DNA from: Pachyseris speciosa | Lineage: Eukaryota > Cnidaria > Anthozoa > Scleractinia > Pachyseridae | Direction of reading: 5' to 3' | NCBI GenBank assembly: GCA_016490735.1 | Contig: JAEMWC010001380.1 | Coordinates: forward strand, 1 to 64,000 | DNA length: 64,000 nucleotides | Shown: one piece after another, positions 26,401 through 64,000 of the stretch | Numbering within the stretch: the stretch's first letter is position 1 | Layout: every line of letters begins with the position of its first letter | Translations under genes and position numbers: made by a program | The notes under the pieces: model-generated | Told to the model about the DNA's origin: nothing | Databases searched by the model: none | What the model saw: only the letters and a program-made list of their open reading frames with translations

Positions 26401-26681
26401 AAGTATCGGCATTGGACACGCGGAAATTCTAGGTTACCATCCGGGTTTAAGTTCTCATCAAGAGTTGAATTCATACTAAATAAATCGAGATCGTATAGAC
26501 AGGGTAAACATTCAAGATTTCTTTTTGTAGGTAGCTCACTTGCAAGCGAGTTGTTAAATTGACCATGATAGAGGGGCAAATTGCCCCTTAAGTTGAAGTA
26601 CGGTAGCTCTTTTAACAATGATCTAGTATATTTCTGTTCTTGTTTAGACTGTCTACTACGTAAACCTTGAGTTCTCATCAA
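23418..26681 (-). CDS. LINE ORF2: endonuclease-reverse transcriptase, 1087 aa
   Basis: The protein nicks target DNA and copies its RNA into the genome (target-primed reverse transcription). An apurinic-type endonuclease spans roughly residues 115-330 (VTETKI near 149, GDFN at 256-259, SDH at 323-325). The reverse transcriptase spans about 600-870, with NYRPISLLS (628-636), FIDLKKAFDTVNH (698-710), GVPQGSVLGP (756-765) and the catalytic FADD (787-790). No stop or frameshift interrupts it. There is no RNase H or other C-terminal domain that I can recognise, in keeping with L2/CR1-type elements. It follows ORF1 by 56 bp on the same strand. Confidence 0.93.
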   Translation of the reverse strand: MMRTQGLRSRQSKQEQKYTRSLLKELPYFNLRGNLPLYHGQFNNSLASELPTKRNLECLPCLYDLDLFSMNSTLDENLNPDGNLEFPRVQCRYFSPHSFKEYGSSFSSSQKESSLSFFHNNIVSLNKNLDNLVAHYLDELDFHFNVIGVTETKITKSNEHLCNYQIPGYNFEQVPTPLVSGGVGLFIDNTLTYTVLEKTSTEAFQALWVEFSFLKQKNIICGIIYRQHNSPDLFLNYLTDTLERLNSTGKRVCLLGDFNLCLLKTPTSHHSHDFLTILQGNYLIPTIDKPTRVHRTTATLIDNIFVNNPEQVLLSGNIITDVSDHFSQFCILSSVKENSNIKKIIRDKRDFSHFSAESFNSDLSAVDWENILLTKSNNIDDLFSTFFKCVNNIVNKHAPIKNLSKRKIKQLAKPWITKGLRTSIKVKNKLYVLGDYVKYTYYRNRLTTLTRLSKQKYYANYFLANINNMKKTWQAINTLLTNRKRKSHSITALKDPRDNNLVTHNPSRIPNILNEHFATIGNKLAMKLSPRSNYKDYLAKSKSPDSSFLFQPVSPEEVKFEILSLSNNKSHGLYSCPAQLLKCACDIISPVLAEIFNISISSGAYPSKLKISKITAIFKCDDETDALNYRPISLLSNFNKVFEKIMYNRMVSFIEQHSILYSSQYGFRQGHSTNHAIIDIVEAIQSNMNRRLFTCGIFIDLKKAFDTVNHKILLDKLNHYGFRGIINDWLKSYLTDRTQTTQTDSHISDKCTCTCGVPQGSVLGPLLFLLYVNDIHNCSSKLKFFLFADDTSIIFADKDLKKLEVTVNNEIEKLNDWLTSNKLTLNTKKSNYVIFRPYQKKIQNIPQICIFDHDSNKNVNLEYKDCIKYLAVLIDENLSWKNHIDSVITKISKTVGMLSKLRHYIPFCILINIYNALITPYLSYGLITWGHASKTHLNKLTILQKRALRLIHFADRNEHAIPLFVKTSVLPLSFLYVQAVSNLMYDINAKQAPPNILNLFCRTSSIHKYATRSSTSQNFYIKNSRIDRQKYSFSRVGAKVWNGIPAKIKKLPKNSFKKEMKRILFDILKTEDSYIEIDKIIFDLKNH

Positions 26682-26737
26682 AGTATGTTGATATATAAAT
26701 CAATTAAGGTAGGAAATACAAGGGAGTGAACTTATCT

Positions 26738-43364: not shown

Positions 43365-43679
43365 TAGTGTTTGGGGGTACGAAATCAATTGATTTCGTTT
43401 TCCCCAAACACTATACTACTCGCCTTCTGGTCTCGTATTCTGAAATATATAGTTATTTAATTTGATGGAATATATAGTTATTTAATTTGATGGAATATAT
43501 AGTTATTTAATTTGATGGAATATATAGTTATTTAATTTGATGGAATCTATAGTTGTTCAATCTGATGGAACCAAGGTCTGCACACTTCATCTATAGTTTA
43601 TAAAAATGCGTGACATTCTCGGAAAAATCACCAAGCGTGACATTCTCGGAAAACAGGGAATGAGTCATCGCCTATAGCT
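43365..43679. repeat. Left terminal inverted repeat of Polinton
   Basis: Matches the right TIR from TAGTGTTTGGGGG to CGCCTATAGCT. It holds an extreme-end palindrome (43365-43413), five 25-bp units starting GAA(T)ATATAGTTATTTAATT from about 43,440, and two direct copies of GCGTGACATTCTCGGAAA. Compared with the right TIR it has two more 25-bp units and one substitution. Confidence 0.95.
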
Positions 43680-48168: not shown

Positions 48169-48235
48169 TTATAATATATCTATAGTTATTATTTCTTTAA
48201 AACATTTCCGTCTGCGTTTAAATATGGTTGAGAAT

Positions 48236-48469
48236 TCAATTGATCCAATTACTGGATCCTTTTGAATTGTAATTATTGAGAATATTTTTTTGATGTTTTT
48301 TTGTTTTAATATGACAAGATTTCCCTGCCATTGTGTAGTTACGTCCTGTCTTACATATGTTACAGTACCATTCTTTATTTAGCATATAGGTAGTCTTGTG
48401 TTTTTTTCTTTCCTCATCACTGAGAACTCTAGGCCTTCCCCGACCTCTCTTGACATTTTGATTCTCCAT
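48236..48469 (-). CDS. Small AT-hook and zinc-finger protein
   Basis: The 77-residue protein starts with an AT-hook (KRGRGRPR, residues 7-14) that should bind AT-rich minor groove. One C2H2/U1-type finger follows, with CNIC at about 36-39 and two histidines about 13-20 residues later (CHIKTKKH). A nucleic-acid-binding role, such as regulating the element or packaging its DNA, is inferred. It lies between PolB and the Bro-N gene on the same strand. TAACTATATATT immediately precedes the ATG, resembling the PolB upstream sequence and the TIR repeat. Confidence 0.7.
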   Translation of the reverse strand: MENQNVKRGRGRPRVLSDEERKKHKTTYMLNKEWYCNICKTGRNYTMAGKSCHIKTKKHQKNILNNYNSKGSSNWIN

Positions 48470-48487
48470 AATATATAGTTATATAAA

Positions 48488-49369
48488 TTATTTTTTTAAA
48501 TATCTTTCTCTTCTTGATAAGTATAATTTGCTTTCTTCCATGTGTTTAGTTATTTCATGAATCAAGTCTTCCAAACTATTGCTCATGATGTATTTGCAGT
48601 TGTTTTTCTCATACATTAGCTTCATATCAGACTGTTTGTCTGACACTTTATACACACCTGTTGGGCTTTTAAATTCAAGACAAAGAGCATTGTATTTTCT
48701 AGTGGGATTCATCAGCATTAAATCACACTGTCCAGCCATATATTCTTTCTTATAACTTCTGATTCTCAAGTTTGGGCTTATTTGATTTTCACCTAATCCC
48801 GCCACCATTAATGCACCTTCATATTTCTTTCTGATGAATGAAACAATCTTATAATGCAGATCATCTTCACTTTCAATCATCAGCATGTTATTATTTCTGT
48901 CATTGAACTGATTGTAATACCCCTGTTTTCTGATTGATGGCAACACTTTAGATGTAACCCAATGTTTGAATTTTACAGCTTCTTGTTTTTTAGAGGACAG
49001 TATTAGTGAATAAAATCCTGATTCATTTATAAAAAAACATTTGAAAGTTTTTTCAGTGGTCTCAGCACGAGGTAACGTTTTGTTACATCGTGAATCAGTG
49101 GCCTCAGCACGAGGTAACGTTTTGTTACATCGTGAATCAGTGGCCTCAGCACGAGGGACCGTTTTGTTACATCGTGAATTTATGCTGATTTTGTGGTCTC
49201 TTAAGATTCTATCATCAGATAAAACATGATCCTTGATTGCTTTTTGTGGATTTTCATAGTCAAGAATAGAAGCTATGTCTCTACCTCTGAACCAAATCTC
49301 ATTGTTGTCATCAAGATAACAATCTATTGATACATCCAATTCTTTATTATTGTAGGAATATTTTTGCAT
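48488..49369 (-). CDS. Bro-N domain protein fused to a VRR-NUC/PD-(D/E)XK-like nuclease
   Basis: Residues 1-150 match the Bro-N DNA-binding fold of baculovirus and phage proteins (WFRGRDIASILDYENPQKAI; INESGFYSLILSSKK; FKHWVTSKVLPSIRKQG). Residues 170-270 look like a restriction-type nuclease: AGQCDLMLMN with D216, then LCLEFKSP with E232 and K234, and a later KLMYEKNNCKYIMSN. The metal-binding D and ExK are all present. The frame is complete. Its Bro-N part contains three 14-residue tandem repeats (SRCNKT(L/V)PRAEATD, about 65-106) from a 42-bp DNA repeat, inserted in the loop before FFINES. A role in recombination or DNA processing is an inference. Confidence 0.75.
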   Translation of the reverse strand: MQKYSYNNKELDVSIDCYLDDNNEIWFRGRDIASILDYENPQKAIKDHVLSDDRILRDHKISINSRCNKTVPRAEATDSRCNKTLPRAEATDSRCNKTLPRAETTEKTFKCFFINESGFYSLILSSKKQEAVKFKHWVTSKVLPSIRKQGYYNQFNDRNNNMLMIESEDDLHYKIVSFIRKKYEGALMVAGLGENQISPNLRIRSYKKEYMAGQCDLMLMNPTRKYNALCLEFKSPTGVYKVSDKQSDMKLMYEKNNCKYIMSNSLEDLIHEITKHMEESKLYLSRRERYLKK

Positions 49370-49523
49370 TTGTATATTATAGTAATTTATTTTTTAATTC
49401 ATTTTCGACCTGTGTTTAAATATAGTCAGGAATAATAATATTCTTGGCTACATAATAGCAAATAACAGATATACTGTAGGTCTCCTTCACATATATGTTA
49501 GATAATTTTCTCTTAAAACAATT

Positions 49524-50440: not shown

Positions 50441-51282
50441 CTAGTTTTTCTTGCCAGTTTTCTTCACTCGACGGCGTTTTCCGTTTTTTGAAACACCAAG
50501 ACCGAATTTCTGTTTTTTGTCAATTAAGAATCTGGCTGTTTGACCCCATTTTGGCATCTCACCATATGGTATTTGATCAAGTGACTCGACCATTGTTCTA
50601 TCACAATCACCTTTATTTTTTCCCATATCATAACAAATATCATGGTAAGCTGCAATTTCATCTACTTTATTGTAAGGTAGGACATTCCATTTTGTAACCT
50701 CACCTGTATTTTTATCATACTCTAACTGTTTATCGAGGGGATTATAAGGTCCCATGTATTTATACTTTCCGGGTGTCCATCCACTTTTTGGTTTAGGAAG
50801 CTTGCCAATAACCTTATGAATGTCAATACCTTTGCCATAATCCAATCCCTTGATATCTGTTTTATAACGAATGTTTGGTCTCACTTTTGTTGACAGTTGA
50901 TTTAAAGCTTCAGTCCCAACCTTTGTAATTATAGGCTTTGTGAGGGAAAGTCCTTTATCAATCAATTGCTTTTGCAGCTTTGGATTTCTCATTGCTTCAG
51001 AAGCATAATATCTTCCCATCTCTACACCTTTCTTTGCTAAATAAGGGACTCCATGTTCTAAGAATCCTGTTAGTGCCATATCTGCTGCCGAATCTAGTAT
51101 GCCCGCCCCTTCAGACGGGCTAATCAGTTTCCCCGATTTCTGACAAATTTAGTCTTTGTGATTCCACATTCAGCACAAGTACATTTCATCACAGTTCGAC
51201 CATTTTTTGTCTTTTGATATCTTTCACTTCCTGGTACACATTCAGTGACTTTCTTCTGTTTCACACAATATGATTTTACCAT
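50441..51282 (-). pseudogene. Zinc-ribbon plus parvovirus-VP1-like phospholipase A2 virion protein, frameshifted
   Basis: Two frames belong together. The first (51282-51124, 52 aa) has YC near its start and CTCAECG, a small zinc-ribbon-like module. The second (to 50441, 212 aa from its ATG at 51079, open further upstream) has a phospholipase A2-like domain: KYMGPYNPLD as the calcium loop, and AAYHDICYD with the His-Asp catalytic pair. Its C-terminus is Lys/Arg-rich. In parvoviruses this domain opens endosomal membranes during entry; adintoviruses encode comparable proteins, so a virion-associated entry role is likely. A frameshift at a G-run near 51,130 separates the halves. TCTAA lies 12 bases before the ATG and contains the stop of the protease gene. 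Confidence 0.8.
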
Positions 51283-51294
51283 TATACATATAAG

Positions 51295-51708
51295 TTAGAT
51301 ATTTTCGAAGTAGTCTATGATGAATCTGTGATTGACTCTTGTGTCTGTTGGATCAAATTCAGCATTATGTATTGTATTAAGAATGGATCTCCCATTTTGT
51401 CTCTCGAGAAGATAGTACAAACACCAATATCCACACAAGACTGAATCTCTTTCTTGTATCTCATCTCCAGAGTATTCAAGTTGTTTTCCACTTGTAGCCA
51501 TGTATTTCTGTACTTCTGTTGGCATCATTAAACCAAATGAGTCAAAGTATTCACAGTATCTATCACCAATTCGATAACATACCCAGTGAGTACCAGGTCC
51601 AATCTGACTGTCGAGATTGACTATTCCACATTCATTGTTTTTGATTTCTCTAGGAAGATTGTCTCTTGAAAATACTCCTCTGAAATGTTTTATTCCAAGT
51701 TGTTTCAC
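51295..51708 (-). CDS. pro: Adenain-like cysteine protease (maturation protease)
   Basis: The adenovirus-type/Ulp1-like catalytic residues appear in order: His in GTHWVCY (about residue 41), Asp/Glu in EYFDSFG (about 54-56), Gln in EIQERDS, and Cys in LCGYWCLYYLL. The protein would process capsid precursors during virion maturation. The open frame begins at a GTG, and the reading frame continues upstream with protein-like sequence (PLSNFDLINW) into the end of the 80-aa gene without an ATG, so the annotated start is uncertain and the original ATG may be mutated. It ends one TCTAA motif before the next gene. Confidence 0.9.
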   Translation of the reverse strand: MKQLGIKHFRGVFSRDNLPREIKNNECGIVNLDSQIGPGTHWVCYRIGDRYCEYFDSFGLMMPTEVQKYMATSGKQLEYSGDEIQERDSVLCGYWCLYYLLERQNGRSILNTIHNAEFDPTDTRVNHRFIIDYFENI

Positions 51709-51743
51709 CCAATTGATTAAATCAAAGTTGGATAAGGGTTTAT

Positions 51744-51986
51744 TTACAAAATGGTTCCCAGAATTGGGATTGAATTGAATGGACTGTTTTTGCCCAGTAG
51801 AAGTCCTTTTCCTTTGGTTTTTTTTTTTTTTTTCATTCCATAACCGATTGAGTTATCCCATGTACCAAAAACAGGAGGGGATTGCCATGGAATCATAGCA
51901 TGTTTCCCACCACTTTTATTTTTTGCAATGGAATCTGGAACATGAACTGGTAATGACCGTCTTGGACGGCTGCTTTCAACATGCAA
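51744..51986 (-). CDS. Small conserved-looking virion-type protein, unknown
   Basis: Eighty residues: a basic start (SSRPRRSLPVHVPD), a middle with MIPWQSPPVFGTWDNS, a poly-Lys stretch from a T14 run in the DNA, and a hydrophobic end (SPFNSIPILGTIL). It has no ATG; the frame opens just after the stop of the upstream gene. Position between protease and minor virion genes suggests a small capsid or core component. The poly-Lys tract is a hotspot for slippage, so the exact frame is uncertain. I do not recognise a family. Confidence 0.5.
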   Translation of the reverse strand: MHVESSRPRRSLPVHVPDSIAKNKSGGKHAMIPWQSPPVFGTWDNSIGYGMKKKKKTKGKGLLLGKNSPFNSIPILGTIL

Positions 51987-51998
51987 ACCTTTTCCAGT

Positions 51999-52601
51999 TT
52001 ATTTTCTAATTGCTTCTATGGCCAAAGGAATTCCAATACTGGCGAGTATTGTTCCAATACCCTTTCCAGTCTGCGCTTTTGTTGGTTTTATAACAACGTC
52101 TCCACCATACTGCATTTTTTGGATAACATCAGCCATCTGTCTCGTATTCAATAAATTTCCTACATTCAATAATTGGGATAAATTGGCATTAGGAATAAGA
52201 AATCCTCCACTTTGTTTCTTCCCAAATAGTTTATCAACACCGAGACTTGCTAATGAAGACAGAGCACCTGTAGCCAATGCTGGAGCCGCTTTAGCTACTG
52301 CTTTACCTGCATAAGGCAATAGTCTTGTTCCAAGTGAAAAAAGACTGGACCAAAGAGAACCTCCTTCTACAACAGCTTTTCTGATTTGATTTTTTGATAT
52401 CTTGATGTCTGAACCTTTTCCTGATCTACTTGATTTAATCAGTTTGTTGATTTGTCTCTTAGTCAACATTAGTTGATCATGTCCAGACAATTCACTATGT
52501 GTCAACCTGATTGTTACAGGCGAATTTGTTGCATAAGCTTTTGCTAGCTTTTGTTTCTGACCCTGTGAAAGTTTCACTCCATGAGGATGATAAGTAGTCA
52601 T
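51999..52601 (-). CDS. Putative membrane-active minor virion protein
   Basis: The 200-residue protein has a basic N-terminus (about 1-75; QGQKQKLAKAYATN, KRQINKLIKSSRSGKG). Then comes an Ala/Gly/Leu-rich hydrophobic and amphipathic stretch (about 84-125; SLFSLGTRLLPYAG and TGALSSLASLGVDKLFG), and a second short hydrophobic segment at the end (TILASIGIPLAIEAI). This layout is like the membrane-active minor capsid proteins (pVI/pX type) proposed for adintoviruses and adenoviruses. No sequence motif proves that. It sits between the MCP gene and the protease on the same strand. Confidence 0.55.
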   Translation of the reverse strand: MTTYHPHGVKLSQGQKQKLAKAYATNSPVTIRLTHSELSGHDQLMLTKRQINKLIKSSRSGKGSDIKISKNQIRKAVVEGGSLWSSLFSLGTRLLPYAGKAVAKAAPALATGALSSLASLGVDKLFGKKQSGGFLIPNANLSQLLNVGNLLNTRQMADVIQKMQYGGDVVIKPTKAQTGKGIGTILASIGIPLAIEAIRK

Positions 52602-52639
52602 ATAATATATGTTTATACTAAATTGTATTTAATACAAAC

Positions 52640-52718
52640 AATCATTTAATTATTTAATTTATTTAATTATTTATTTAATTAATTTAATTTAATTAATTAT
52701 TTCCAATTAATTATTTAA
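52640..52718. repeat. TTAATTTAATTA low-complexity tract
   Basis: About 80 bp composed almost only of TTAATT/TTATTT units between the MCP gene end and the minor virion gene. Self-complementary and extremely AT-rich. Confidence 0.9.
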
Positions 52719-52719
52719 T

Positions 52720-54008
52720 TTACATTGATCTCAGAATTAATTTTCCATCAGTCTTTCTCATCTCAATATCCTGCTCATAGAGGACCAGTGCATACACACT
52801 GTAATCAGCATTTGTTGCAGCACTCAAAGTGTATTTGAAAGTCAGTTTTGTCATTCCATCTTTGATATCCTGTTTCTGTTTTGTCAGATCGAAATAAACA
52901 AAAGGGAATATTGTACCGAAATTGCCCCTGTTAAGAAGGGTACTTTCACTGAAATCATTTACAGCTTGAACATATTTCAAAACATCTCTAAATACTCTTG
53001 TTGGTTCTGTTGATGGTTTATAATGAACCTCTGGATAATCATTACCATTGCCACCTCAAGATAACAATCAGTCAAAGTTTGGTTATTTGCAACTGAAAAG
53101 GTGTTATAGAGAAATTTATTGGCTGTCTGAGATGCATCACTTGCATCATTGATGATGAATACAAAAACATGCCTGGGTTTGTTTATTCCTGTGGAAATAC
53201 GGAAATTGGCAGTCTGTTGTCTTGTTGAATTGCCTCTCTCAACCATTTCTCTCATGTAAGTCCACTTTCTGTTGTCAAGATACTTGCTCATGTATAAGGA
53301 CTTTCCCGCAGAATTGAAAATAATACGAGGAACAATTAGCTGGAATTTAGTTAGTACCACACGACATTCATCAGTAGCTTGCCAAATCATATTGTCATCA
53401 CTCTCAAGTGTCAGATTCACCTCTATTTTTGAGTTAGGCATAAGTTCATCCCAAAAGCTCTTGAAAAAACCGTATCTGTTCAATGCTATCTCTGCATTTA
53501 CTTTACCAGCTGCACCATCCAACAGTGCTTTGCGAGCTGCGAAACCTTTGTTATAAGAAGCCACCTGAGCAACTCTGTTTTCAGCTTCTCTGTTGTCGTC
53601 AAGATAGAAGAACTCATTGGTCCCCTGACTTACAGCATAACCCTGTGAATACTCAAGCAAAGACTTTATATTTGTGGCTTGGTTGGCATCTCTGCACTCA
53701 TAAACATCAATACCATTCATTTTTACATTAAGAGTGTTTATAAGAGCGTGAACTGAATTAACAATACCATTTCGATCTGCAGCAGCAATGTTGTCTCCAT
53801 CTGCAAGCTTTTTTACAATGAAATCAACATTCAAACGGGCATTGTACCAGTCAAATGGTGTAGTCTCTCCACTGTTATCAACAACGAAACGGTAACCTGT
53901 TTTCCTCTGATGATCATTATTTGCTACTACAGTAATAAGTGCCGTCTCTAGTTCGAACACTACATCTTCATATCTTTCGATATATTTTGAGTCACGATAG
54001 TTTGACAT
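52720..54008 (-). pseudogene. mcp: Double-jelly-roll major capsid protein, one frameshift
   Basis: Two frames, 54008-52977 (343 aa) and 52980-52720 (86 aa), together cover a Polinton/hexon-type capsid protein of about 430 residues. Family landmarks: FDWYNARLNVDF near 52, NRYGFFKSFWDELMPNSKIE near 183, DDNMIWQ, KPRHVFVFI near 291, and in the short frame GTIFPFVYFDLTKQK and NADYSVYALVLYE. The frame breaks at about 53,055, just before a conserved region, and the expected residues continue in the other frame, so this is a single indel. It would form the capsid shell. TCTAA lies 11 bases before the ATG. The assignment rests on family recognition of these segments and the neighbouring minor capsid genes. 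Confidence 0.85.
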
Positions 54009-54030
54009 ATATTATTGTGTTAGATAAAAG

Positions 54031-54261
54031 TTATTTTATTTTACGAGGTCGGCCTCTCTTTCTTTTGATTAAACCACCAGTCTGGCTCACACTCTCAGTT
54101 CCACTCTTTCTCTTTTTCAAAAGTTCTATGATTTTGTCACCAGCTTTTTTGCCAGCATGTTCACCGATTGTTGTTGCTGCTTTTTTTACAGCTGTTTTGG
54201 CAATGTCAGTCACAATACCTTCACCATGTTGTTCATATTTTTTAAACTCAAACCGTTTCAT
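54031..54261 (-). CDS. Small basic AT-hook protein, possible core protein
   Basis: A 76-residue Lys-rich protein: an N-terminal charged helix, an Ala/Lys helix (TAVKKAATTIGEHAGKKAGD), then a basic linker and a C-terminal AT-hook (KRKRGRPRKIK). It probably binds DNA and could condense the genome in the virion, as small basic core proteins do, but this is inferred from composition. It lies between the MCP and a minor capsid gene and is preceded by CCTAATAGTAT rather than the full TCTAA motif. Confidence 0.6.
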   Translation of the reverse strand: MKRFEFKKYEQHGEGIVTDIAKTAVKKAATTIGEHAGKKAGDKIIELLKKRKSGTESVSQTGGLIKRKRGRPRKIK

Positions 54262-54274
54262 ATACTATTAGGTT

Positions 54275-55060
54275 TTATAATTCCACACCTCTCAAGAATA
54301 ACTCAATATACCAATCTATCCCGTTTAAATTGACTGAAGCTCTAGAAGAATCAGTGACATAAAAGCGTATTGAGCTGATTGTATGTGTTGAGATAGGATT
54401 CCATGAAAGAAAACGAGGTTTGTAAGTGAAAGGTAAACTTCTAACGAGATCTGTGACTGGAATAACAGCGATTGTATTTGTGCTATTGCCATCAACAATG
54501 CTATCTGTCACCATATCACAATTGATATAAATTTCATCTACTCCTCTTGTAATATCAGGTAGATTTGTTCCATATTCTGTGGCTGAAACTAATTTTGAAT
54601 CGAAACCGATAAGTTTTCTGAAATCAAGACTTCTCATATCCACTCGATAGTTTTCATCAAGTTCAATCAAAATGCGATATGTTGACAAAACGAAATACAT
54701 GTTAATACCATACAGGAATTTTGATTTGTCTGTTTCAGATGGATTCAGTACATGGTTATTTTTTCTCATATACTCATGAATGTAACTATTGATATCGTCG
54801 TATGAATACATCCCGTTAACGAATGTTATTGTTTCCCAGTTTACACCTTTGTCATAGCTGTATTTCATTTGATTATTTTCAAAAATATCTCTGATATTGT
54901 ACCAACTGTATGTCATATTGATGACATTAACAGCCATTTCATATTTTAAATCATTCGTTAATTTAAGAGGTGTATTGAATCTTTTTTCAAAATCATGACT
55001 CTTACTGACACCAATTTTGTCTCTGTTTTTACTGTTGAATCGTAATGAAATTTCTGTCAT
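54275..55060 (-). CDS. Minor capsid (penton-like) protein, copy 1
   Basis: Intact 261-residue protein beginning MTEISLRFNSKNRDK. Conserved blocks shared with its neighbour include INMTYSWYNIRDI, WETITF, FRKLIGF, NLPDITRGVDEIY and FLSWNPISTHT, ending with a beta-rich IDWYIELFLR. Polinton minor capsid proteins are single-jelly-roll vertex (penton) proteins found beside the MCP. Position and size fit, but the assignment is by context and family resemblance. It is the undamaged copy of a tandem pair with about half its residues shared. TCCAA lies 11 bases before the ATG, a one-base variant of the element's late-type motif. Confidence 0.7.
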   Translation of the reverse strand: MTEISLRFNSKNRDKIGVSKSHDFEKRFNTPLKLTNDLKYEMAVNVINMTYSWYNIRDIFENNQMKYSYDKGVNWETITFVNGMYSYDDINSYIHEYMRKNNHVLNPSETDKSKFLYGINMYFVLSTYRILIELDENYRVDMRSLDFRKLIGFDSKLVSATEYGTNLPDITRGVDEIYINCDMVTDSIVDGNSTNTIAVIPVTDLVRSLPFTYKPRFLSWNPISTHTISSIRFYVTDSSRASVNLNGIDWYIELFLRGVEL

Positions 55061-55093
55061 ATATCATTACATTGGATATTTTTTGACAATGAT

Positions 55094-55815
55094 TCAATTC
55101 CCCGGTTTCTGTTCTCTCACAAACAGATCAATGTACCAATCTATGTTATTCAAATTAACTGCTTCACCTTTTGCATCTGTGATATAGAAACGGATTGAGC
55201 TGTTTGTGTGTGTTGAAATAGGGATCCATGAAAGGAACTGATGTTTATGGACAAAAGGGAAACTCCTGGCCAAGTTAGTCACTGGGATCACATCAATGGT
55301 ATTCGTACTGTTGCCATCGATCACTTTGTCACATTTGTCACAATTGACGTATATCTCATCGACACCTCTTGTTATGTCGGGAAGATTTTCTCCAAATTTT
55401 GTAACAGTTACTATCTCCGCATTGAATCCAATCAGTTTCCTGAAGTCAGTATTTCTCAAATCCACCTGATAGTTTTCATCCAAATTTATCTGGACTCTGT
55501 ATGTCACCAAGGAGAATACCAGGCTTATTCCTTTGGTTGTGCTTTTTATAACATCATCCAAATCATTGTAAGAGTACACGCCATTGGAGAAAGTTATTGT
55601 TTCCCAATTTGCTCCTCCGTCGTGGCTATACTTCATTTTGTTGTTGTTGTAAATGTCTCTGATGTTGTACCAACTGTAGGTCATGTTGATTTCCTTTACA
55701 GCCATTTCATATTGCATGTTACTTTCCAATTTCAAAGGAACTGTGAAGTCATGGCTTTCACTAACACCAGTTTTTCTCTGTTCTTGCTGTTGAATCTCAA
55801 TGAAATTTCTGTCAT
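55094..55815 (-). pseudogene. Minor capsid (penton-like) protein, copy 2, frameshifted near the N-terminus
   Basis: A paralogue of the adjacent gene. The ATG at 55815 opens with the same first 13 residues (MTEISLRFNSKNR), then the frame is lost at an A-run near 55,773 and resumes in the open frame 55735-55094 (213 aa). Shared blocks are INMTYSWYNIRDI, WETITF, FRKLIGF, NLPDITRGVDEIY and ISTHTNSSIRFY. It lacks a roughly 25-residue insertion present in copy 1. TCTAA lies 11 bases before the ATG. Duplication of the vertex protein could allow mixed pentons, but this copy is broken unless the indel is an assembly error. Confidence 0.75.
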
Positions 55816-55821
55816 ATATTA

Positions 55822-56688
55822 TTACATTAGATATTTCATCATTATTTTATTCAACTCACCGGTTTTCAGGATTCCCAGTCTGTTCAATGTATGCAATATT
55901 TTTGTGAATTCATTTTGAACATTTTTGCTGTTGTTGCCGGCTGAAATAGATCCACCAAGTAACTGTAGTCTTGAAAGCATGTCACCCAAAAATGCATCCC
56001 TTGAACCCATTGCACCTCTTCTCCTTCCCATGCCTGAACCAATAGTTGATGCACCTTCCTCAACGGCGCCAATTCTTTTTCGGTACTTTTGCATTAGTTT
56101 GATCCTTTGAGTCAATTCATATATCTTTTCTTTATTTTTATCCCTATTTGTTTTGGTTGTTGATAGATGAGCTTTTTGTCTTCCAAGTTTTTTGGTTATT
56201 TCACCAATATTTCTGTTATACTCATCGATGTCGATTGTACCATCCATTATCCTTTTTAAAATTGTTGTTGGAGGAGACAATTCATATTCCTGTAATACCT
56301 TAACCTCATCAAGTGAGAAACCTTTGTCAAGATTTGACTTATACTTTGGTTCTGTTTCAGTCATCATTTTAGGTTTGTAATCAATTGGTAATGTTGTTTT
56401 CATTGGTACTGATTCAGGTAACGTGTTCAATAGCATAAGATCTTCAAAACCAGATGTCAAGGCTTTTTTATTCTTTTTCAACTGTTCAATAACTTCATCC
56501 TGTTTTTTGTCAACACTTTCTTTCACACTCTTCTGGACATCAATAGAGGGTTTCATCAATTCTGATGTTGTATCATATGCATCCTGTTTTCTGTATTCAT
56601 AAGTCTTGATAACATCACGAACTTCTCTAGTTTTATTTCCAGCTTCAATTCCACTTTTAAGAAGCCTTTTCATTCGTTCTATATCCAT
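55822..56688 (-). CDS. Coiled-coil virion-type protein, unknown function
   Basis: I start it at the ATG at 56688 (MDIERMKRLLKSG), since an upstream in-frame start is a TTG. About 288 residues, highly charged, with long helical segments: roughly 45-80 (SVKESVDKKQDEVIEQLKKN) and 165-210 (LTQRIKLMQKYRKRI). A Gly/Arg patch (SGMGRRRGAMGSRD) and a C-terminal helix follow. The frame is complete. It is divergent from the packaging ATPase gene and shares its 36-bp intergenic promoter region. TCTAA is 11 bases before the ATG. Possibly an internal scaffold or minor capsid component, but this is a guess from context. Confidence 0.7.
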   Translation of the reverse strand: MDIERMKRLLKSGIEAGNKTREVRDVIKTYEYRKQDAYDTTSELMKPSIDVQKSVKESVDKKQDEVIEQLKKNKKALTSGFEDLMLLNTLPESVPMKTTLPIDYKPKMMTETEPKYKSNLDKGFSLDEVKVLQEYELSPPTTILKRIMDGTIDIDEYNRNIGEITKKLGRQKAHLSTTKTNRDKNKEKIYELTQRIKLMQKYRKRIGAVEEGASTIGSGMGRRRGAMGSRDAFLGDMLSRLQLLGGSISAGNNSKNVQNEFTKILHTLNRLGILKTGELNKIMMKYLM

Positions 56689-56724
56689 ATACAATTTTGT
56701 TAGACTAATCTAAACTATTTACAT
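56689..56724. promoter_or_regulatory. Bidirectional late-type promoter with two TCTAA motifs
   Basis: The 36-bp space between two divergent start codons contains TCTAA on the minus strand at 56704-56700 (11 bases before ATG 56688) and on the plus strand at 56709-56713 (11 bases before ATG 56725). The two motifs are nearly back to back, in TTAGACTAATCTAA. This is the clearest example of the TCTAA-N11-ATG arrangement. Confidence 0.7.
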
Positions 56725-57363
56725 ATGGAAATCCCTAATTATGATATTCAGGGTTCAAAGAATTCATTCAGACAGTTGTATCCGTATATGCCAAAAGACA
56801 CTTTCAGGATGCTGCTGGCTGGTAATTCTGGATCTGGAAAGACAATATTGTTCATGCATCTGATTATGGAACCATTGGTTTATTATGATCAGATACATCT
56901 TTATGCAAAAAATTTAGATCAAGACAAGTATCAATATCTACGGAAAGTAATGGATGAAATAAGCAGTCACATTGGATATCCTGCCTTGGTTTGCAGTCAA
57001 GAAGAGATATTACCAGTTGAACAAATAAAAGACACAGATTTGCAGCGATTGGTTGTTTTTGATGATTTTGTGACTGACAAGAAACAAGATCAGATAATCA
57101 GCTATTTCATTCAGGGGAGACACAAGAACTGTTCAGTCATATATCTCACACAATCATTCTATGGCTGTCCAAAATCAATCAGACTCAATTGCAGTCACTT
57201 CTGCATTTATGATTTTCCATCCACAAGAGAAAGGAACTTGATTGCACAAGAACTTGGAATCGACAAGAAGAAATACATTGAAGCAACCAAGAAACCATAT
57301 TCCTTCTATTATGTTGACAAGCCGATGAAGACAATCAAGAGAAATTTTTATGGTGCAGTTTAA
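56725..57363 (+). CDS. FtsK/HerA-type genome packaging ATPase
   Basis: The Walker A motif is AGNSGSGKT (about residues 32-40), Walker B LVVFDDF (about 112-118), and a following TQSFYGCPKSIRLNCSH has the motif III Gln and the downstream conserved residues of A32-like viral ATPases. A C-terminal PFKT-like region ends KTIKRNFYGAV. At 212 residues it is of usual Polinton length and intact. It would pump the element's DNA into capsids. It is the first gene of the plus-strand half, with TCTAA 11 bases before its ATG. Confidence 0.95.
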   Translation: MEIPNYDIQGSKNSFRQLYPYMPKDTFRMLLAGNSGSGKTILFMHLIMEPLVYYDQIHLYAKNLDQDKYQYLRKVMDEISSHIGYPALVCSQEEILPVEQIKDTDLQRLVVFDDFVTDKKQDQIISYFIQGRHKNCSVIYLTQSFYGCPKSIRLNCSHFCIYDFPSTRERNLIAQELGIDKKKYIEATKKPYSFYYVDKPMKTIKRNFYGAV

Positions 57364-57379
57364 TCTAATCTAATATTAT

Positions 57380-57619
57380 ATGGCAATCAACAATTTTCAA
57401 AATCCAGAAAAACAGGAGAATCCCAGAACAGAAAGAATCGAAAAATTGATCAAACCTGACGCTGCTGTTAAAACACCATTTGAAATCGCTGAAAAAATCA
57501 AAATGGAAGTATACAGGAGGACACAAAAAGTATTGAAAAACAATAAGAGACTACCTGTCATCTATGAAACCATACCACCTGAATTCTTGGAAGATGAAAG
57601 CAGTGATGAAGAAGATTAA
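57380..57619 (+). CDS. Small protein with acidic C-terminus, unknown
   Basis: 79 residues. It has a charged N-terminal half (ENPRTERIEKLIKPDAA), a predicted helix (PFEIAEKIKMEVYRRTQKVL) and an acidic tail (EDESSDEED). It starts 17 bp after the ATPase gene and is preceded by two overlapping TCTAA motifs, one exactly 11 bases before the ATG. It is probably co-regulated with the ATPase and fibre genes. I do not recognise a family. Confidence 0.65.
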   Translation: MAINNFQNPEKQENPRTERIEKLIKPDAAVKTPFEIAEKIKMEVYRRTQKVLKNNKRLPVIYETIPPEFLEDESSDEED

Positions 57620-57636
57620 TCTAACAAGATGATATA

Positions 57637-60600
57637 ATGGGAGTTTTTAATTCTCCACTAGATCAAGATGAAACAAAAACTGGTGAAAGAGGCCCGGCTG
57701 GTCCAATTGGTCCCAAAGGTGAAAAAGGTGATAAAGGTGAAAGAGGTCCAAAAGGTGATAAAGGTGATAGAGGTCCATTTGGTTTCAAAGGTAATAAAGG
57801 TGAAACAGGTGATGGATTTAGATTAACACAAGATGGCAATTATGATATTGAAAATAAACGTTTGACAAATGTTGGTGATCCAGTAAATCATTATGATTCT
57901 ACTAACTTGGGATATGTTAATGATGCTGTTTTATCAATTGAAGGAACACGTGTTAATCCATTTAAATTTCTTCTTGAAGATGTATCAAAAACAACTATTC
58001 TTAGAAATGCGAATAATCTACAATTAGAAGTCTATAATAAAAGCCCTTACTCAATGAATAAAAAAGCCTTGTCTTTTGTTATTCCTACTGCTGGTCTTAC
58101 AACTGTTCTTCGTTTTGATTTGTCACAATTGGAAGTTTCAAAGTACACTTAAGTGGTTGAGTTTTATACAGATGGTAACCCAAATAATGCAACAGTCGAT
58201 GACGACAATCTGTCATCAAATTTAATTGAAAGAAAAGATTCGATAAAAAGAGCCTTTCCAAAAACTCATCTTGTTGATGGTTATCTCAAGAGAATATTCT
58301 TCATTGAAAAAACAAGTCATGGTTCCACATCAATGGAGTTATTGTTGATTTCACCATATTTACAAAATAATAAAAAACATTATGTTATAGTTTATGGTGT
58401 TTATGGATTTTCTAATATCATTTTATCACATATTCACGACCCAGCTTTTGAAATAGAAGGAAGAATTGTACTTGATCGTGAGCTTAAAATGAGTTTTCAT
58501 AGAATAGTCAATGTTGGACGCCCTATACTTCCACAAGACTGCGCAACTAGAAAATACGTTGATGATGGTGTAATAGGTAAAGCGGATAAAACATATCTCA
58601 ATAATAACTTTGTGAAAAAAGATGGAAGTGTTGCAATGACTTCTGATTTGAATCTTGGAGGTAACAAATTGACTAATGTAGCAGCGCCTACAGCAAACAA
58701 TGATACAGCCACAAAGGGGTATGTTGATACTGAAATTGCCGGAATTACTGGCATTGATGTTTCTCCATTTCTTAAAAAAGACGGAAGTGTTGCAATGACT
58801 GGTGATCTGGACATGGATGACAATAAAATAACAAATGTTGGGGCTCCAACTGCCTACAAAGATGCTGCCAACAAAAAGTATGTTGATGACCTTGTTTTTT
58901 CAGCATCAGGAGCACAAAAAAATCCATTCGCTTTTCTGTTGAAAGATATTTCCAAGTCAACAGGGATACAAAATGTTAATAGCCTCCAAATTGAAGATTT
59001 TAACAGATCACCATATCATATTAACAAGTCATCATTGTCTTTTTTGATTCCAACAAGTGGCAACTTCACATCCAAGATTCGCTTTAATGTTTCATCATTG
59101 AGTAATGGACGGTACACATTTGTTACTGAGTTTTACTCACCATCAGACCCAAGAAGTGCAACAATCAGTTTAACCCTTCCAACAATTAACATGCGTGACG
59201 CTGGACAGTCATTTCAAAAATCTTTTACTAGAACTCCACACGTTGATGGTTATATTAAAATTCTTTTCCAGATAGAAAAAGAAGTGGTGGGCAAGCGGCA
59301 ATACAGGTGGAACTTTCCAGCACAGCTCCTGCGTCTAACACCAAAACACATATCATCGTTTATGGGGCCTATGGCTATCATACCAATTTGTCTTACTTTC
59401 TCCATGACCCAGCTTATGAAATTGAAAACGGCCATGTTGCGTTTGGTAGTAATATTGACATGAAACTAAACAAAATCCTCAACCTGCAGGATAACCCCTC
59501 AAACCCCCAAGATGCTGTAAACAAAAGTTATGTGGACCAGAGGTTGCAAACCAAACTCGATACGATTGCACAACAAAATCTAAATATGAACAACAATGCC
59601 ATCACTGATCTTGCTCCACCCGTCAACGCAGACGATGCGGTGACGAAACTTTATACTGACGAGTATTTTCTTCGACGAGACGGTTCAACTGAAATGTATG
59701 GCGATTTGTCGATGGGTGGAAATAAAGTGACGAATTTAGCGGATGTGGTGAATGAAACTGATGCAGTGAACTTCAGAGTTTTAAATCGAGCTTCACAAAC
59801 CATCAGAGCAAACACTTTATTATTGAATGGAACAAATGCGATGGCAGCAGACTTAAAACTTGGAGGGCATAAAATCATTAACTTAAAAGAAGGAACAAAT
59901 AAAACCGATGCCGTAAATTTAGATCAATTAGAAAAAAGTCATATTTCGTCTGCTTCTCATCCAAAGAATGCTTTCAAATATTTGATGAATGATATCGATG
60001 AAGTCAGTACTGAATATGGCTTGAAAGTTAATGGATATGTCAATTTACCTCGTTCACCGCATTTGATTTTAAAAAAGGTCATTGATGTAGACTTGAATAA
60101 AGAAGCTAATCATATTTACAGAGCTAGAATTGGATTTAATATGTATACAATAAAAGATGGAAAATACACTTTCATTCTTGAATGGCTATTTCCTGATTAT
60201 GAAGGAATGAATCTTAGTAGTGTAACATTCAGTGCAACTGGTCGAATTACAATTCATAAAACTGTAGGGAGAAAATTTGATAACAGAAATGAAGATCATT
60301 CGAGATATTTATTATGGATTGAAAAACCTTCAGTAAGTTCACCACCTGAATATTTATATTGTACGATTCATATTAATGCTAACCCAACTTATCCAAATAA
60401 GTACAAAGTTCATTGTGTTGCATATGGTATTGATTTTGAAGCTGTAGACGTTCCATCAAGTGTTTACGACTTCGCAGAAGCTTATAAAATCGTGAATGAA
60501 AAAATGCAATTACAAACTGATTTAGATTTGAATGGACATGCCTTGATTAATAATTCATCAAACTTATTTGATGGTGAAAATGGTGAATTGACAATGCTAA

Positions 60601-61159
60601 ATAATATTAATATGAACAGCTTTCTTATAAGTGAGGCTAAACTTGGTGGTGATTTAAATCTGAATGGCTATAGAATTCATAATAATAGTTTGAATCTATT
60701 TCGTTCAAGCGTTACAGGTGTAATTATGGAAACAGCTTTCGATTTGGGTGGATTTGCTCTTTACGGGCCGAAATTAGGAGGTGATCTAAATTTGAATGGG
60801 AATAATATAATTGGTCAAATACAATATTTAAATTGCTTTGTCAAAGCCAATCGAGGACATGATAAGAATGTTTTAAAGCCTGTATTGATAAATGGCTCTG
60901 AATTTTTAGTTATTCACAACAATAACTTTCATATTAAGAATATGTATGTATTACAAGGAACAAAACCCGGAATATTCTACTTCAAGACAAAAGCTGAAGG
61001 TGGTGGGCCTTTGCCATTACCAGCAACTGTTTATGAACACAGACAATCTTCTTTAAGTAGAAACATCACAACGGTCAACATCAACAAATCATTGATTATT
61101 CACATCCTAATACAGGTGCATTTGATACAACATTCACACTTGAAGTGGTCATGAATTAA
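57637..61159 (+). pseudogene. Collagen-stemmed fibre protein 1 (about 1170 aa ancestrally), broken
   Basis: Starts MGVFNSP, then 15 Gly-X-Y triplets (residues 16-60, GPKGEKGDKGERGPKGDKGD), then repeats of the kind KKDGSVAMTSDLNLGGNKLT followed by NVAAPTANNDTATKGYVD. Such DGS-M-DLNLGGNKI-N modules also occur in phage tail fibres. Two larger beta-rich repeats start near FKFLLEDVSK and FAFLLKDISK. A trimeric, receptor-binding spike is the likely role. Lesions: an in-frame TAA at 58150-58152, a frameshift near 59,310-59,330 into the frame ending at 61154, and another near 61,080 after which the conserved-looking end (stop at 61159) continues. TCTAA is 12 bases before the ATG. Confidence 0.8.
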
Positions 61160-61176
61160 TCTAAATTAATATTATA
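61160..61176 (+). promoter_or_regulatory. Late-type TCTAA motif before fibre 2
   Basis: TCTAA at 61160-61164, 12 bases before ATG 61177. The upstream context AATCTAA and the start ATGGGAGTTTT are shared with fibre 1 (TCTAA at 57620-57624). Confidence 0.6.
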
Positions 61177-62178
61177 ATGGGAGTTTTCAATTCTCCACAA
61201 AATCAAGACAATAAAGGTGATAAAGGTGATATAGGTCTAATTGGTCCACAAGGCCCACAGGGTCCACAAGGTGTTTCAGGTTCTGTTGGCCCCAAAGGTG
61301 ATAAAGGTGATGGATTTACATTAACACAAGATGGGCATTTTGATATTGGAGGAAATAAAATAACAAATGTTAATGAAGGAACATCGGATGATGATTGTGT
61401 AACAAAAAAACAACTAGATTTGAAGTTAGATAGAGCAACTTTTGTTATTTCAAATTCACTGCCTGGTATACCTGTTCTTGATGGGATTTCAATTGCTTTG
61501 ATACCATCTCTGTCTGTATTGACAACTGATGCTGATGATAGAGTTTCTAGTTGGCTGGATCCTGTTAATAATGTCACTTTTACACAAACTTCTAATTCGA
61601 AAAAACCATTGTTACTGAGAGATTCAATCAAGAAAAAGTTTTTCATACGTTTTGATGGCAGTGATGACTACTTGGAGAACAGTTCATTTGATGTTTCTAA
61701 AGTTGCTGGACAGAGTGGAAATACTTGTCCTGTTATAATCATTGCAAACACAAAACAAACAAAATATCAATCACAATTTCAATGGGGTAAGGGTGCTATT
61801 AGATTTGGTGTTCATCTGCCTTGGATTAATGGAGCATGTTATATTGATTTCGGTTCTACATTAAATGGAAGACTTGCTGTTTCTTCTTTGGCTAATCTGA
61901 CGGGAAATATTGAAGTTTTTACTGTTCGAGTTGATGGTCATAATATGGAATTTTTCAGAGGTGTTTCATCAATGACACCAGTTGGAACAGGATCAATTTC
62001 AGCAACATTGACTGGTAGTGCACAAGAAATGTTTATTGGTTGTCAAGTTCATACAGATGGTTCTGCAATTAATTTTTGTGAAATGGATCTTTATGCTTTT
62101 GCTGTTTGGCAGAAATCACTAACTAACCAAGAACTGAGAAATATGTATCGTTTCATTGAAGATTATTTTGATCTTTAA
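61177..62178 (+). CDS. Collagen-stemmed fibre protein 2 with lectin-like head
   Basis: Intact 333-residue protein. The N-terminus MGVFNSP is identical to fibre 1, so both probably dock to the same capsid vertex. About 11 Gly-X-Y triplets follow (residues 14-46, GPQGPQGPQG), then one fibre module (DGHFDIGGNKITNVNEG). The C-terminal 230 residues resemble a concanavalin/LamG-type fold: FDGSDDYLENSSF, FTVRVDGHNMEFFRG, QEMFIGCQ and a closing AVWQKSLTNQELRNMYRF, as in many viral and bacterial glycan-binding domains. Likely attaches particles to cell-surface sugars. TCTAA is 12 bases before the ATG. Confidence 0.8.
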   Translation: MGVFNSPQNQDNKGDKGDIGLIGPQGPQGPQGVSGSVGPKGDKGDGFTLTQDGHFDIGGNKITNVNEGTSDDDCVTKKQLDLKLDRATFVISNSLPGIPVLDGISIALIPSLSVLTTDADDRVSSWLDPVNNVTFTQTSNSKKPLLLRDSIKKKFFIRFDGSDDYLENSSFDVSKVAGQSGNTCPVIIIANTKQTKYQSQFQWGKGAIRFGVHLPWINGACYIDFGSTLNGRLAVSSLANLTGNIEVFTVRVDGHNMEFFRGVSSMTPVGTGSISATLTGSAQEMFIGCQVHTDGSAINFCEMDLYAFAVWQKSLTNQELRNMYRFIEDYFDL

Positions 62179-62201
62179 ATTTTTGTCTAAACAACTGATA
62201 T

Positions 62202-62621
62202 ATGAAAGACTTATTGAGATATCTATCTTATGTTTTCAAGATTCACAAAAAAGACTACCCCAATTTAGATGATTCTATATTAAAATCCTGTCTTGCATAC
62301 AAATTTTTATACCACAAGCATTTCGAAGGATATATTACTATAGATGATATCATAAAATCTCACGCAGACATAGGCCTTATTGGTCCCGGAAGCGGTTGTT
62401 TATCAAACTTCTTAGAACATACTCTTGGTTGGATTGATGTATTACAGACTCATGCTATCCTCCATGATGCATATGGAAGATTTTACAATGATTATTCATT
62501 GGGCCGTGGATATAGTTATGCATATCCTGATTGCCTAGCAACAAAAAATAGTAAAAGTTCTCCATTATGCGGCCAGATGTCAGGAATACTGTATTGTATT
62601 TTTAATAGAATTATTGTATAA
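62202..62621 (+). CDS. Unknown protein with GPGSG and HDAYGRF motifs (divergent PLA2-like?)
   Basis: 139 residues, intact. The N-terminal third is helical and basic. The middle has LIGPGSGCLSNFLEH, about 25 residues later THAILHDAYGRFYNDY, then GRGYSYAYPD. A GPG loop followed by a His-Asp-x-Tyr helix is the general layout of secreted and parvovirus-type phospholipases A2, so a second, very divergent lipase-like protein is possible, but the spacing differs and I cannot prove it. TCTAA is 11 bases before the ATG, grouping it with virion genes. It stops directly at the next gene. Confidence 0.55.
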   Translation: MKDLLRYLSYVFKIHKKDYPNLDDSILKSCLAYKFLYHKHFEGYITIDDIIKSHADIGLIGPGSGCLSNFLEHTLGWIDVLQTHAILHDAYGRFYNDYSLGRGYSYAYPDCLATKNSKSSPLCGQMSGILYCIFNRIIV

Positions 62622-63116
62622 ATGATATATATGAAAGAGCGAAAAAGCATATTCAACTGGAATTATATTTCAGATGAATTAACAGAAGATCAGGTAAATG
62701 AATTAAAATCCTATTACCGAACATATCACAGAAAGTGTTGGGCTCATAAACAGGCGGTTAAACGGTTCAAAAAATGGAAATTAGCTGGTAATTCAGCGTC
62801 TATTTTATTTGCAACTGGGGGTCTCGCCACAAGTGTGGCAACAGGTGGTGTTAGTTTGGTAGCCATCAGTACAGCAGCACTTTTGATACAAGGGTGGATG
62901 AAGCATAAAAACCTAGATTTGAAAATCCAAAATTGCGCATATGCTTATCAAAGCTATCAACATCTACTCAATTCAATAAAAGACAAGTTGAGAAGTGGTG
63001 ATTTTGATGCTTCAAGTATACAAATCTCAATGAAGAATATCGATGATTATGTGACTGATAATAGTCCAATTATTGATAAGTACCTACTGAAATATGATGA
63101 AAAATTCACTGCTTGA
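62622..63116 (+). CDS. Membrane protein with hydrophobic hairpin, unknown
   Basis: About 160 residues; a second in-frame ATG at 62631 may be the true start. There is a charged N-terminus with YYRTYHRKCWAHKQAVKRFKK. Residues 55-90 form a Gly/Ala-rich hydrophobic stretch (ASILFATGGLATSVATGG, then VSLVAISTAALLIQGWM) able to span a membrane once or twice. A helical C-terminal part with YQHLLNSIKDKLRSGDFD follows. It starts immediately after the previous stop codon, and its 3' end overlaps the convergent VLTF3-like gene by 11 bp. It has no TCTAA motif of its own. Function not recognised. Confidence 0.65.
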   Translation: MIYMKERKSIFNWNYISDELTEDQVNELKSYYRTYHRKCWAHKQAVKRFKKWKLAGNSASILFATGGLATSVATGGVSLVAISTAALLIQGWMKHKNLDLKIQNCAYAYQSYQHLLNSIKDKLRSGDFDASSIQISMKNIDDYVTDNSPIIDKYLLKYDEKFTA

Positions 63117-63669
63117 TAATACGAATAATCTTATCAAATCTCAACAATAGAATCTCAACCCAATATCGATCATAAAATCCAAGCGTCTTTTTTGATCTAG
63201 TAACTTTTATTTCATCAAATGGAAGATCAAGCATTAAAAATATTTGCTTAAGCATAAATTTCGTACTTATCATCCTTTTACGATTCTTATTCACCAAAGG
63301 AAGGACAGTGTCTATCTCTTCGAATATTTTCAATATTTTACCCTTATCTTTTACAGAAATTTGAAATCTATTCTTGCGACATATACCATTTATCACATTT
63401 TCAATATGGTACTTCCGGTGATATACAGATTTTCGCTTTATTTTATACATATTATTATGAAAGTCAACGTACTCCTTACAATAGTCATAGCCGTGGACTG
63501 AACCACAATTTAGACAAACATTTTCACCATCATCATTAAACATTTTCTGTTTATCACAGCAAGGTGCTTTCACACTTTTAACAACTTTGACCAATAGCTG
63601 ATCACAAAAAGGACATGTGAACTCTCCCATATTCTTTAATTCATTGTGGATTACTGAATTACAACTCAT
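63106..63669 (-). CDS. VLTF3-like late transcription factor with zinc ribbon
   Basis: 187 residues, intact. An N-terminal zinc-binding region has CPFC (19-22), CC (37-38) and CLNC (52-55). From about residue 78 the pattern matches the poxvirus/NCLDV late transcription factor VLTF3 family: KRKSVYHRKYHIENVI, a central KRMISTKFMLKQIFLMLDLP, and SKKTLGFYDRYWVEI. In large DNA viruses this protein, with others, switches on late genes. It is the only gene transcribed inward from the right TIR and is convergent with the plus-strand half. Its upstream region has no TCTAA motif, as expected of a factor made before the genes it controls. Homology is by motif recognition. Confidence 0.75.
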   Translation of the reverse strand: MSCNSVIHNELKNMGEFTCPFCDQLLVKVVKSVKAPCCDKQKMFNDDGENVCLNCGSVHGYDYCKEYVDFHNNMYKIKRKSVYHRKYHIENVINGICRKNRFQISVKDKGKILKIFEEIDTVLPLVNKNRKRMISTKFMLKQIFLMLDLPFDEIKVTRSKKTLGFYDRYWVEILLLRFDKIIRIIKQ

Positions 63670-63735
63670 TCTATAATATTATGTGAGATATTATTTCTTT
63701 ATGCAACTAACACATGACGTCACGTGAGAAATAAT
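63670..63735. other. Short spacer between VLTF3-like gene and right TIR
   Basis: About 66 bp carrying the start-proximal promoter of the VLTF3-like gene (an AAAGAAATAAT stretch also found upstream of PolB). Confidence 0.5.
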
Positions 63736-64000
63736 AGCTATAGGCGATGACTCATTCCCTGTTTTCCGAGAATGTCACGCTTGGTGATTTTTCCGAGAAT
63801 GTCACGCATTTTTATAAACTATAGATGAAGTGTGCAGACCTTGGTTCCATCAGATTGAACAACTATAGATTCCATCAAATTAAATAACTATATATTCCAT
63901 CAAATTAAATAACTATATATTCCAGAATACGAGACCAGAAGGCGAGTAGTATAGTGTTTGGGGAAAACGAAATCAATTGATTTCGTACCCCCAAACACTA
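63736..64000. repeat. Right terminal inverted repeat of Polinton
   Basis: Reverse complement of 43365-43679 with three 25-bp units instead of five, and one substitution near the first unit. It ends, at the window edge, with the same near-perfect palindrome as the left end (63952-64000). Confidence 0.95.

Follow-up and report, generated by a model that had tools for sequence, protein, structure and literature searches.

The stretch of DNA analysed here (the window) comprises 64,000 nucleotides of the coral Pachyseris speciosa (contig JAEMWC010001380.1). A Polinton/Maverick (adintovirus-like) element begins in it at about 43365, runs to the end of the window and carries inverted repeats at both termini. 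In this study, we found that most of the virion-side genes of this element share a two-part signal at their starts. It consists of TCTAA, exactly eight bases, and TATA, of which the start codon either takes the last A (TATATG) or comes directly after (TATAATG). The names of the capsid and DNA polymerase B (PolB) genes are those of the original prediction, an earlier reading of the same letters, and we take them as assumptions.

The original prediction had placed TCTAA, once TCCAA, 11 or 12 bases before ten start codons, and all ten coordinates were correct. TCTAA stands 11 bases before the ATG at 54008, 55815 and 56688 on the minus strand and at 56725, 57380 and 62202 on the plus strand, and 12 bases before it at 51282 (minus), 57637 and 61177 (both plus). 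The tenth start, 55060 on the minus strand, has TCCAA at 11 bases. Two duplicated pairs (55060/55815 and 57637/61177) reduce the ten to about eight independent starts, and the list had missed the gene at 52601 (minus), where TATAA occupies that position. The candidate late motifs and their variants are as follows.

51280..51299, minus strand: TCTAA-N8-TATAATG, PLA2-type gene with an interrupted frame (motif scan)
52599..52617, minus strand: variant TATAA-N8-TATATG, 200-amino-acid (aa) gene at 52601; TATAA in 20 of 20 counted starts
54006..54024, minus strand: TCTAA-N8-TATATG, major capsid protein (MCP) gene; TCTAA in 28 of 30 counted starts, CCTAA in 2
55058..55076, minus strand: variant TCCAA-N8-TATATG, minor capsid gene (motif scan)
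55813..55831, minus strand: TCTAA-N8-TATATG, second minor-capsid-like gene with an interrupted frame (motif scan)
56686..56704, minus strand: TCTAA-N8-TATATG, coiled-coil gene; 4 bases between its box and the ATPase box
56709..56727, plus strand: TCTAA-N8-CATATG, A32-type packaging ATPase; 54 of 61 starts have TCTAA and 6 have TATAA
57364..57382, plus strand: TCTAA-N8-TATATG, small 79-aa gene (motif scan)
57620..57639, plus strand: TCTAA-N8-TATAATG, collagen-like fibre gene; starts directly past the stop codon of the preceding gene
61160..61179, plus strand: TCTAA-N8-TATAATG, second collagen-like fibre gene (motif scan)
62186..62204, plus strand: TCTAA-N8-TATATG, small gene of unassigned function; in 15 of 20 other copies, missing from the divergent group

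Exact TCTAA at 11 or 12 bases preceded 9 of the 17 starts judged intact, compared with 10 of the 889 ATGs of the element; the tenth of these, at 59596 on the plus strand, is no gene start. In the rest of the window, outside the element, it preceded 2 of 1590 ATGs. Since TCTAA is equally common inside and outside the element (2.37 and 2.33 per kb), the effect is positional. The hypergeometric value for TCTAA at gene starts was 2.6e-16, a figure that disregards the post-hoc choice of the word. A look-elsewhere control was therefore performed with all 5-mers at all offsets within 60 bases of 15 starts, one member of each duplicated pair being dropped. The observed count was 8 of 15, while no more than 5 was reached in 1000 dinucleotide shuffles and no more than 4 when non-gene ATGs were drawn 1000 times. 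The bare pattern across the whole window was weak, with 12 matches against 7.0 expected, and 12 was reached in 2 of 100 shuffles. The strength of the motif is its coincidence with gene starts, not its bare frequency.

The strict form TCTAA-N8-TATA(A)TG occurred eight times in the element, always at a gene start (mean of 200 shuffles 0.01, maximum 1). When the spacing was scanned from 0 to 30 in the element, eight occurrences were found at a spacing of 8, two at 2, one at 3 and one at 27, and none elsewhere. At the ATPase start the second half of the motif reads CATATG. The slot of the box is filled elsewhere in the element by TATAA (52601), TCCAA (55060) and TAAAA (54261). Neighbouring genes are tightly packed: the eight gaps measured were 6-36 bases long. 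The coiled-coil gene and the ATPase gene point away from each other across a common gap of 36 bases, in which their two boxes sit back to back. A TATA promoter of RNA polymerase II (Pol II) would have a TATA-like word at about -30; the words that we tested occurred 15-45 bases ahead of the box in 0 of the 10 listed late genes. One match outside the element, at 33305 on the minus strand, precedes no listed frame of at least 80 aa and was taken as chance. At 49487-49502 (minus strand), shortly past the integrase stop codon, stands TCTAACATATATG, with the ATG followed directly by TGA; it may be what is left of the start of a late gene.

We investigated the retention of the motif in other copies of the element from the same genome. 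The samples were twenty 9.9-kb pieces and nine 3.2-3.3-kb pieces obtained with a more distant capsid query, among which L029 was clearly more distant. ATPase upstream regions came from 40 loci picked by Pfam profile and not by closeness; 35 were used, and L071, L072, L074, L083 and L094 were dropped, L072 and L074 being divergent lineages without the motif. Left out of the counts were 29 rows whose match fell short of the first four residues and 10 rows in which the aligned start was not an ATG. The window, the 29 other pieces and the 35 further ATPase starts together gave 210 virion-gene starts.

Exact TCTAA was present in 191 of these 210 starts. By gene, it was found in 14/16 PLA2, 28/30 MCP, 27/30 minor capsid, 21/24 coiled-coil, 54/61 ATPase, 13/13 small-gene and 34/36 fibre starts, and in the ATPase and fibre genes its most frequent replacement was TATAA. 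Relaxed to T[CA][TC]AA, the box stood at 11 or 12 bases in 203 of 210, so that the motif is also phased in relatives, as far as copies of the same genome go. A distance of 11 was paired with TAT or CAT in 165 of 166 starts and a distance of 12 with TATA or CATA in 36 of 37, and in the ATPase gene of L085 this shift was visible within a single gene. Because the distance tracks TAT or TATA, the second anchor is (T/C)ATA and not the ATG. Mean heterogeneity was 0.068 in the box, 0.165 in the spacer and 0.228 in the 20 bases upstream (Mann-Whitney 7e-6, a rough value since the copies are kin), and the box was the least variable 5-base window among the 33 bases preceding TATA. These results indicate a two-part, rigidly spaced, gene-class-specific signal that is less variable than its flanks. 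In L010, L013, L018, L021 and L028, the fibre gene has the promoter sequence that elsewhere precedes the small 79-aa gene, so gene content varies at the motif.

A different word was found upstream of the replication-side small genes. TATTTAA lies in the 120 bases before 3 of 3 such genes (48168, 48469 and 49369), compared with 0 of the 14 other starts.

48218..48224, minus strand: TATTTAA box of the open reading frame (ORF) at 48168 (word search upstream)
48496..48502, minus strand: TATTTAA word of the ORF at 48469; falls within the end of the Bro-N gene
49416..49422, minus strand: TATTTAA box of the Bro-N gene, candidate early class; among 10 other copies, 8 have TATTTAA and a further one has TATATAAA

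In the other copies, a TATA word preceded Bro-N in 9 of 10, about 52-60 bases from the start and at a drifting distance. This drift means that indels build up there, but hardly ever inside the spacing of the late motif. TCTAA was found within 100 bases upstream of Bro-N in 0 of 10 other copies, which bears out the prediction that this gene lacks it. The Bro-N frame itself (48488-49369, minus strand) contains an in-frame repeat, in which a 16-residue unit that includes DSRCNKT and PRAEAT occurs about three times. Its open length in other copies ranges from 272 to 369 aa and perhaps tracks the number of repeats.

The element also contains a gene resembling VLTF3, a poxvirus late factor.

63106..63669, minus strand: VLTF3-like gene, which may encode a late transcription factor; lacks the TCTAA motif; PF04947 at 26.4 bits, cut-off 25
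63715..63726, minus strand: CACGTGACGTCA upstream of the VLTF3-like gene; TGACGTCA in 4 of 5 starts with this type of N-terminus, counting the window

Its family has 545 relatives at E 0.001. In an alignment with 31 of 120 relatives listed, out of the 545, PF04947 was matched by 23 of 32 members at E 0.01 (best 2.5e-10), and the TFIIB zinc-binding model was matched by 2 of 32. Among 150 scored candidates in the genome, 84 were above the cut-off. The family is thus real and widespread, as judged from these profile matches. Upstream regions were surveyed at 20 loci, of which 12 had a recognised start; the remaining 8 were truncated, could not be assigned clearly or belonged to a different type. 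As the original prediction had it, these genes do not carry the motif: TCTAA at 11 or 12 bases was found in 0 of 13 recognised starts, the 12 and that of the window. Genes of a second N-terminal type had AAGGTCA upstream in 8 of 8 cases by eye. We take CACGTGACGTCA to be an E-box plus words like the cAMP response element, and AAGGTCA to be a nuclear receptor word. TGACGTCA and AAGGTCA look like host factor sites, and are given as leads only. In L038-L041 (G000 contigs C743, C283, C435 and C234), the VLTF3 matches were far stronger than those of the Polinton type, with E down to 3e-20, and the Polinton-type N-terminus was missing in the piece seen; perhaps they represent another virus-derived family. 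An ORF adjoining the VLTF3-like gene (62622-63116, plus strand) had weak SLATT-domain matches under curated cut-offs (Pfam E 5.8e-4, NCBIfam E 2.4e-4).

A 2024 paper stated, in the excerpt cited here, that VLTF3 homologues are undetectable outside Nucleocytoviricota (PMC11253617), and the excerpted description of adintovirus-like regions in Amoebidium reported VLTF3 in them (PMC11244446). VLTF3 in such elements is already known, and the novelty is its place beside a late-type promoter set.

The terminal inverted repeats, the integrase and the packaging ATPase are those of a Polinton.

43365..43679: left terminal inverted repeat region; inverted arms 43491-43679/63736-63924, 100%
63736..64000: right terminal inverted repeat region; 43365-43520/63845-64000, 97%; extends to the window end

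Pfam matches in the element were an rve integrase (PF00665) with a chromodomain, a PLA2-like domain, an A32-type packaging ATPase (PF04665), Bro-N and the VLTF3-like protein. Among the fibre genes, one collagen and one stalk-type match were above their cut-offs, and a second collagen-like match was below its own. The putative PolB and capsid ORFs had no polymerase or capsid match in Pfam. The putative MCP had 1615 relatives, none of them named, and at least 118 scored matches in the 984-Mb genome. By eye, the frames of PolB, of the long fibre gene and of the genes starting at 51282 and 55815 look interrupted in this copy. An Rfam scan of 43000-64000 gave no match at the gathering threshold. 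Outside the element, a 1093-aa frame at 23418-26699 (minus strand) appeared by eye to be non-LTR retrotransposon-like, with endonuclease- and reverse-transcriptase-like sequence.

These results suggest that the phased motif is probably a core promoter of the late (virion) genes of the element, of virus type and within an early/late cascade. A virus-type late promoter fits best because the motif stands at virion-side genes, is rigidly spaced, is retained in copies and leaves little spare room in the gaps. It fits also because the element carries a VLTF3-like gene and its replication-side genes have a different upstream class. To this extent the original prediction holds as the best-fitting reading, although the link it drew to CroV and mavirus is partial.

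The candidate promoter would begin with a box T[CA][TC]AA, in which A is less frequent than C at the second position and C is rare at the third; exactly eight bases further, (T/C)ATA would overlap or abut the start codon. It would act as DNA, read by a transcription complex. Transcription might start inside TATA, giving a leader of 2-3 nt, or inside TCTAA, giving one of about 13 nt. Initiation at or next to TCTAA, which the original prediction named as an outcome that would support it, is not the sole option, since a start at the fixed TATA would be just as plausible. Bro-N, the two small ORFs and the VLTF3-like gene would be early genes with ordinary host-type promoters, transcribed in a first step by host Pol II. 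In a second step, the early VLTF3-like protein would help a polymerase to reach the late promoters; we favour host Pol II over the polymerase of a co-infecting large DNA virus. The VLTF3 link, taken alone, is a tentative one that we hold to be conceivable without leaning towards it. Rather doubtful as a whole is the full proposal, in which a Polinton without viral RNA polymerase runs a two-step programme, its early VLTF3-like zinc-ribbon protein redirecting host Pol II to the TCTAA-N8-TATA promoters of the virion genes. Such a programme would amount to a minimal late switch of poxvirus type, in a presumably animal host.

Several observations weigh against this interpretation. Both "late" and "promoter" are deduced from sequence, and the copies compared are all from a single genome and of recent common descent. 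The VLTF3 match of this copy is barely above the cut-off (26.4 against 25 bits), the predicted structure is of middling confidence (mean pLDDT 71.7), and a Pfam scan of 20 ORFs showed no RNA polymerase gene. In L109 and in the most divergent copies, L116-L119, the motif is missing before the gene at 62202, and the 52601 gene consistently has TATAA instead of TCTAA. TCTAA is also missing before the AT-hook gene, a member of the virion cluster, both in the window, as predicted, and in 27 of 28 counted starts (TAAAA in 26 of 28); TCTAA is present in L029, a pattern that suggests gain or loss of the motif at a fixed slot. In L127, the Bro-N copy has neither TATTTAA nor TATATAAA. TCTAA-N11/12-ATG was found 0 times in 2 x 8 kb of the GC-rich Polinton pieces L098 and L099, which bear ATPase, capsid-like and fibre-like ORFs, so the motif is not a general Polinton feature. 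As sampled, it belongs to one AT-rich Polinton lineage. IMG/VR queries with MCP, ATPase, PolB and VLTF3 gave no usable locus from other species (one stretch matched), and the MCP query had no match in phage records or GTDB genomes.

The promoter could instead be read by the late machinery of a co-infecting giant virus, as that of CroV does for mavirus. TCTA in AT-rich context is common to CroV and mavirus and TCTA occurs also in ChlorV, and the motifs of virophages are correlated with those of the respective giant virus, according to published excerpts. We nevertheless consider such dependence unlikely, because mavirus carries its late motif on all genes, whereas here the genes of the other upstream class would not follow, and because the element has its own VLTF3-like gene. 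Capsid profiles of nucleocytoplasmic large DNA viruses in Pfam had no match in the genome, and control genomes were equally silent. TCTAA might also be a YYANW-like initiator of host Pol II, with the start on its A and no viral factor. CTAA partly fits the metazoan initiator, a 13-nt leader is workable, and the early genes look Pol II driven. A 5-bp word without a TATA box (0 of 10) would have little specificity in a 984-Mb genome, however, and the fixed TATA eight bases on and the split between gene classes would be unexplained, which makes this reading quite improbable.

An RNA signal, for translation re-initiation or as a short-leader element for each gene of a polycistronic message, would suit the tightly packed tandem genes of the plus strand, where the motif almost fills gaps of 16-23 bases. 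It is very unlikely, since the first genes of the divergent units (56688 and 56725) have the motif with no same-strand upstream gene to re-initiate from, and the replication-side genes lack it. Functionless hitch-hiking of one ancestral sequence, spread by recent copying and gene duplication, would agree with the two duplicated pairs and with the many capsid copies that are more than 90% identical. We give it hardly any credence, because unrelated genes on both strands have in common only the box, the spacing and TATA while their spacers and flanks differ, and because the box is less variable than the flanks. A splice or trans-splice acceptor was rejected, as by eye the spacers have no consistent AG before the ATG.

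A virus-type late promoter bears on the open question of whether animal Polintons still behave as viruses, and a rigid, class-specific promoter kept above its flanks in many copies argues for timed expression of the virion genes as one set. The sequence is short and suited to reporter and binding assays. In the titles and abstract openings listed for polinton, maverick and adintovirus promoters, no promoter of an animal Polinton was described.

The excerpts of published work on related systems allow the following comparison. The Amoebidium adintovirus-like elements likewise have VLTF3, capsid genes and PolB, but their host is a protist, and the excerpted description names no promoter motif (PMC11244446). 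Polintons and mavirus are related elements, and CroV and mavirus have TCTA in AT-rich context (PMC5294985, PMC8547959). Like the late promoter of CroV and ChlorV and like mavirus, an endogenous mavirus-like element (EMALE) of type 4, the Polinton has TCTA just upstream of its presumed late genes, and like CroV and mavirus it has it in AT-rich context. Unlike them, it has TCTAA with exactly eight bases to a TATA at the start codon, and unlike mavirus, in which the motif precedes all genes (PMC6723459), it has it at 9 of 17 intact starts. The kinship that had been predicted is therefore partial, and the TATA half is more like African swine fever virus (ASFV) and poxviruses. EMALE types differ among themselves in promoter motifs (PMC8547959), a parallel to the Polinton motif, which as sampled belongs to one lineage.

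The late promoter of ASFV resembles the Polinton motif in its TATA initiator, TA(+1)TA, in an upstream element a few bases away and in short AT-rich leaders (median 9 nt) (PMC7163114). It differs in the variable distance of its upstream late promoter motif (4-12 bp), and ASFV has its own RNA polymerase. The poxvirus late promoter is also two-part, with an initiator that overlaps the initiation site beside the start codon (PMC5294985). Its TAAAT(G) and T-rich core differ from the TATA and defined TCTAA box found here, and unlike poxviruses the element showed no viral RNA polymerase in the Pfam scan. An initiator-like word at the start codon with an upstream element, as in ASFV and poxviruses, is what TCTAA-N8-TATA(A)TG presents, and the motif would thus tie the regulation of a Polinton to that of large DNA viruses.

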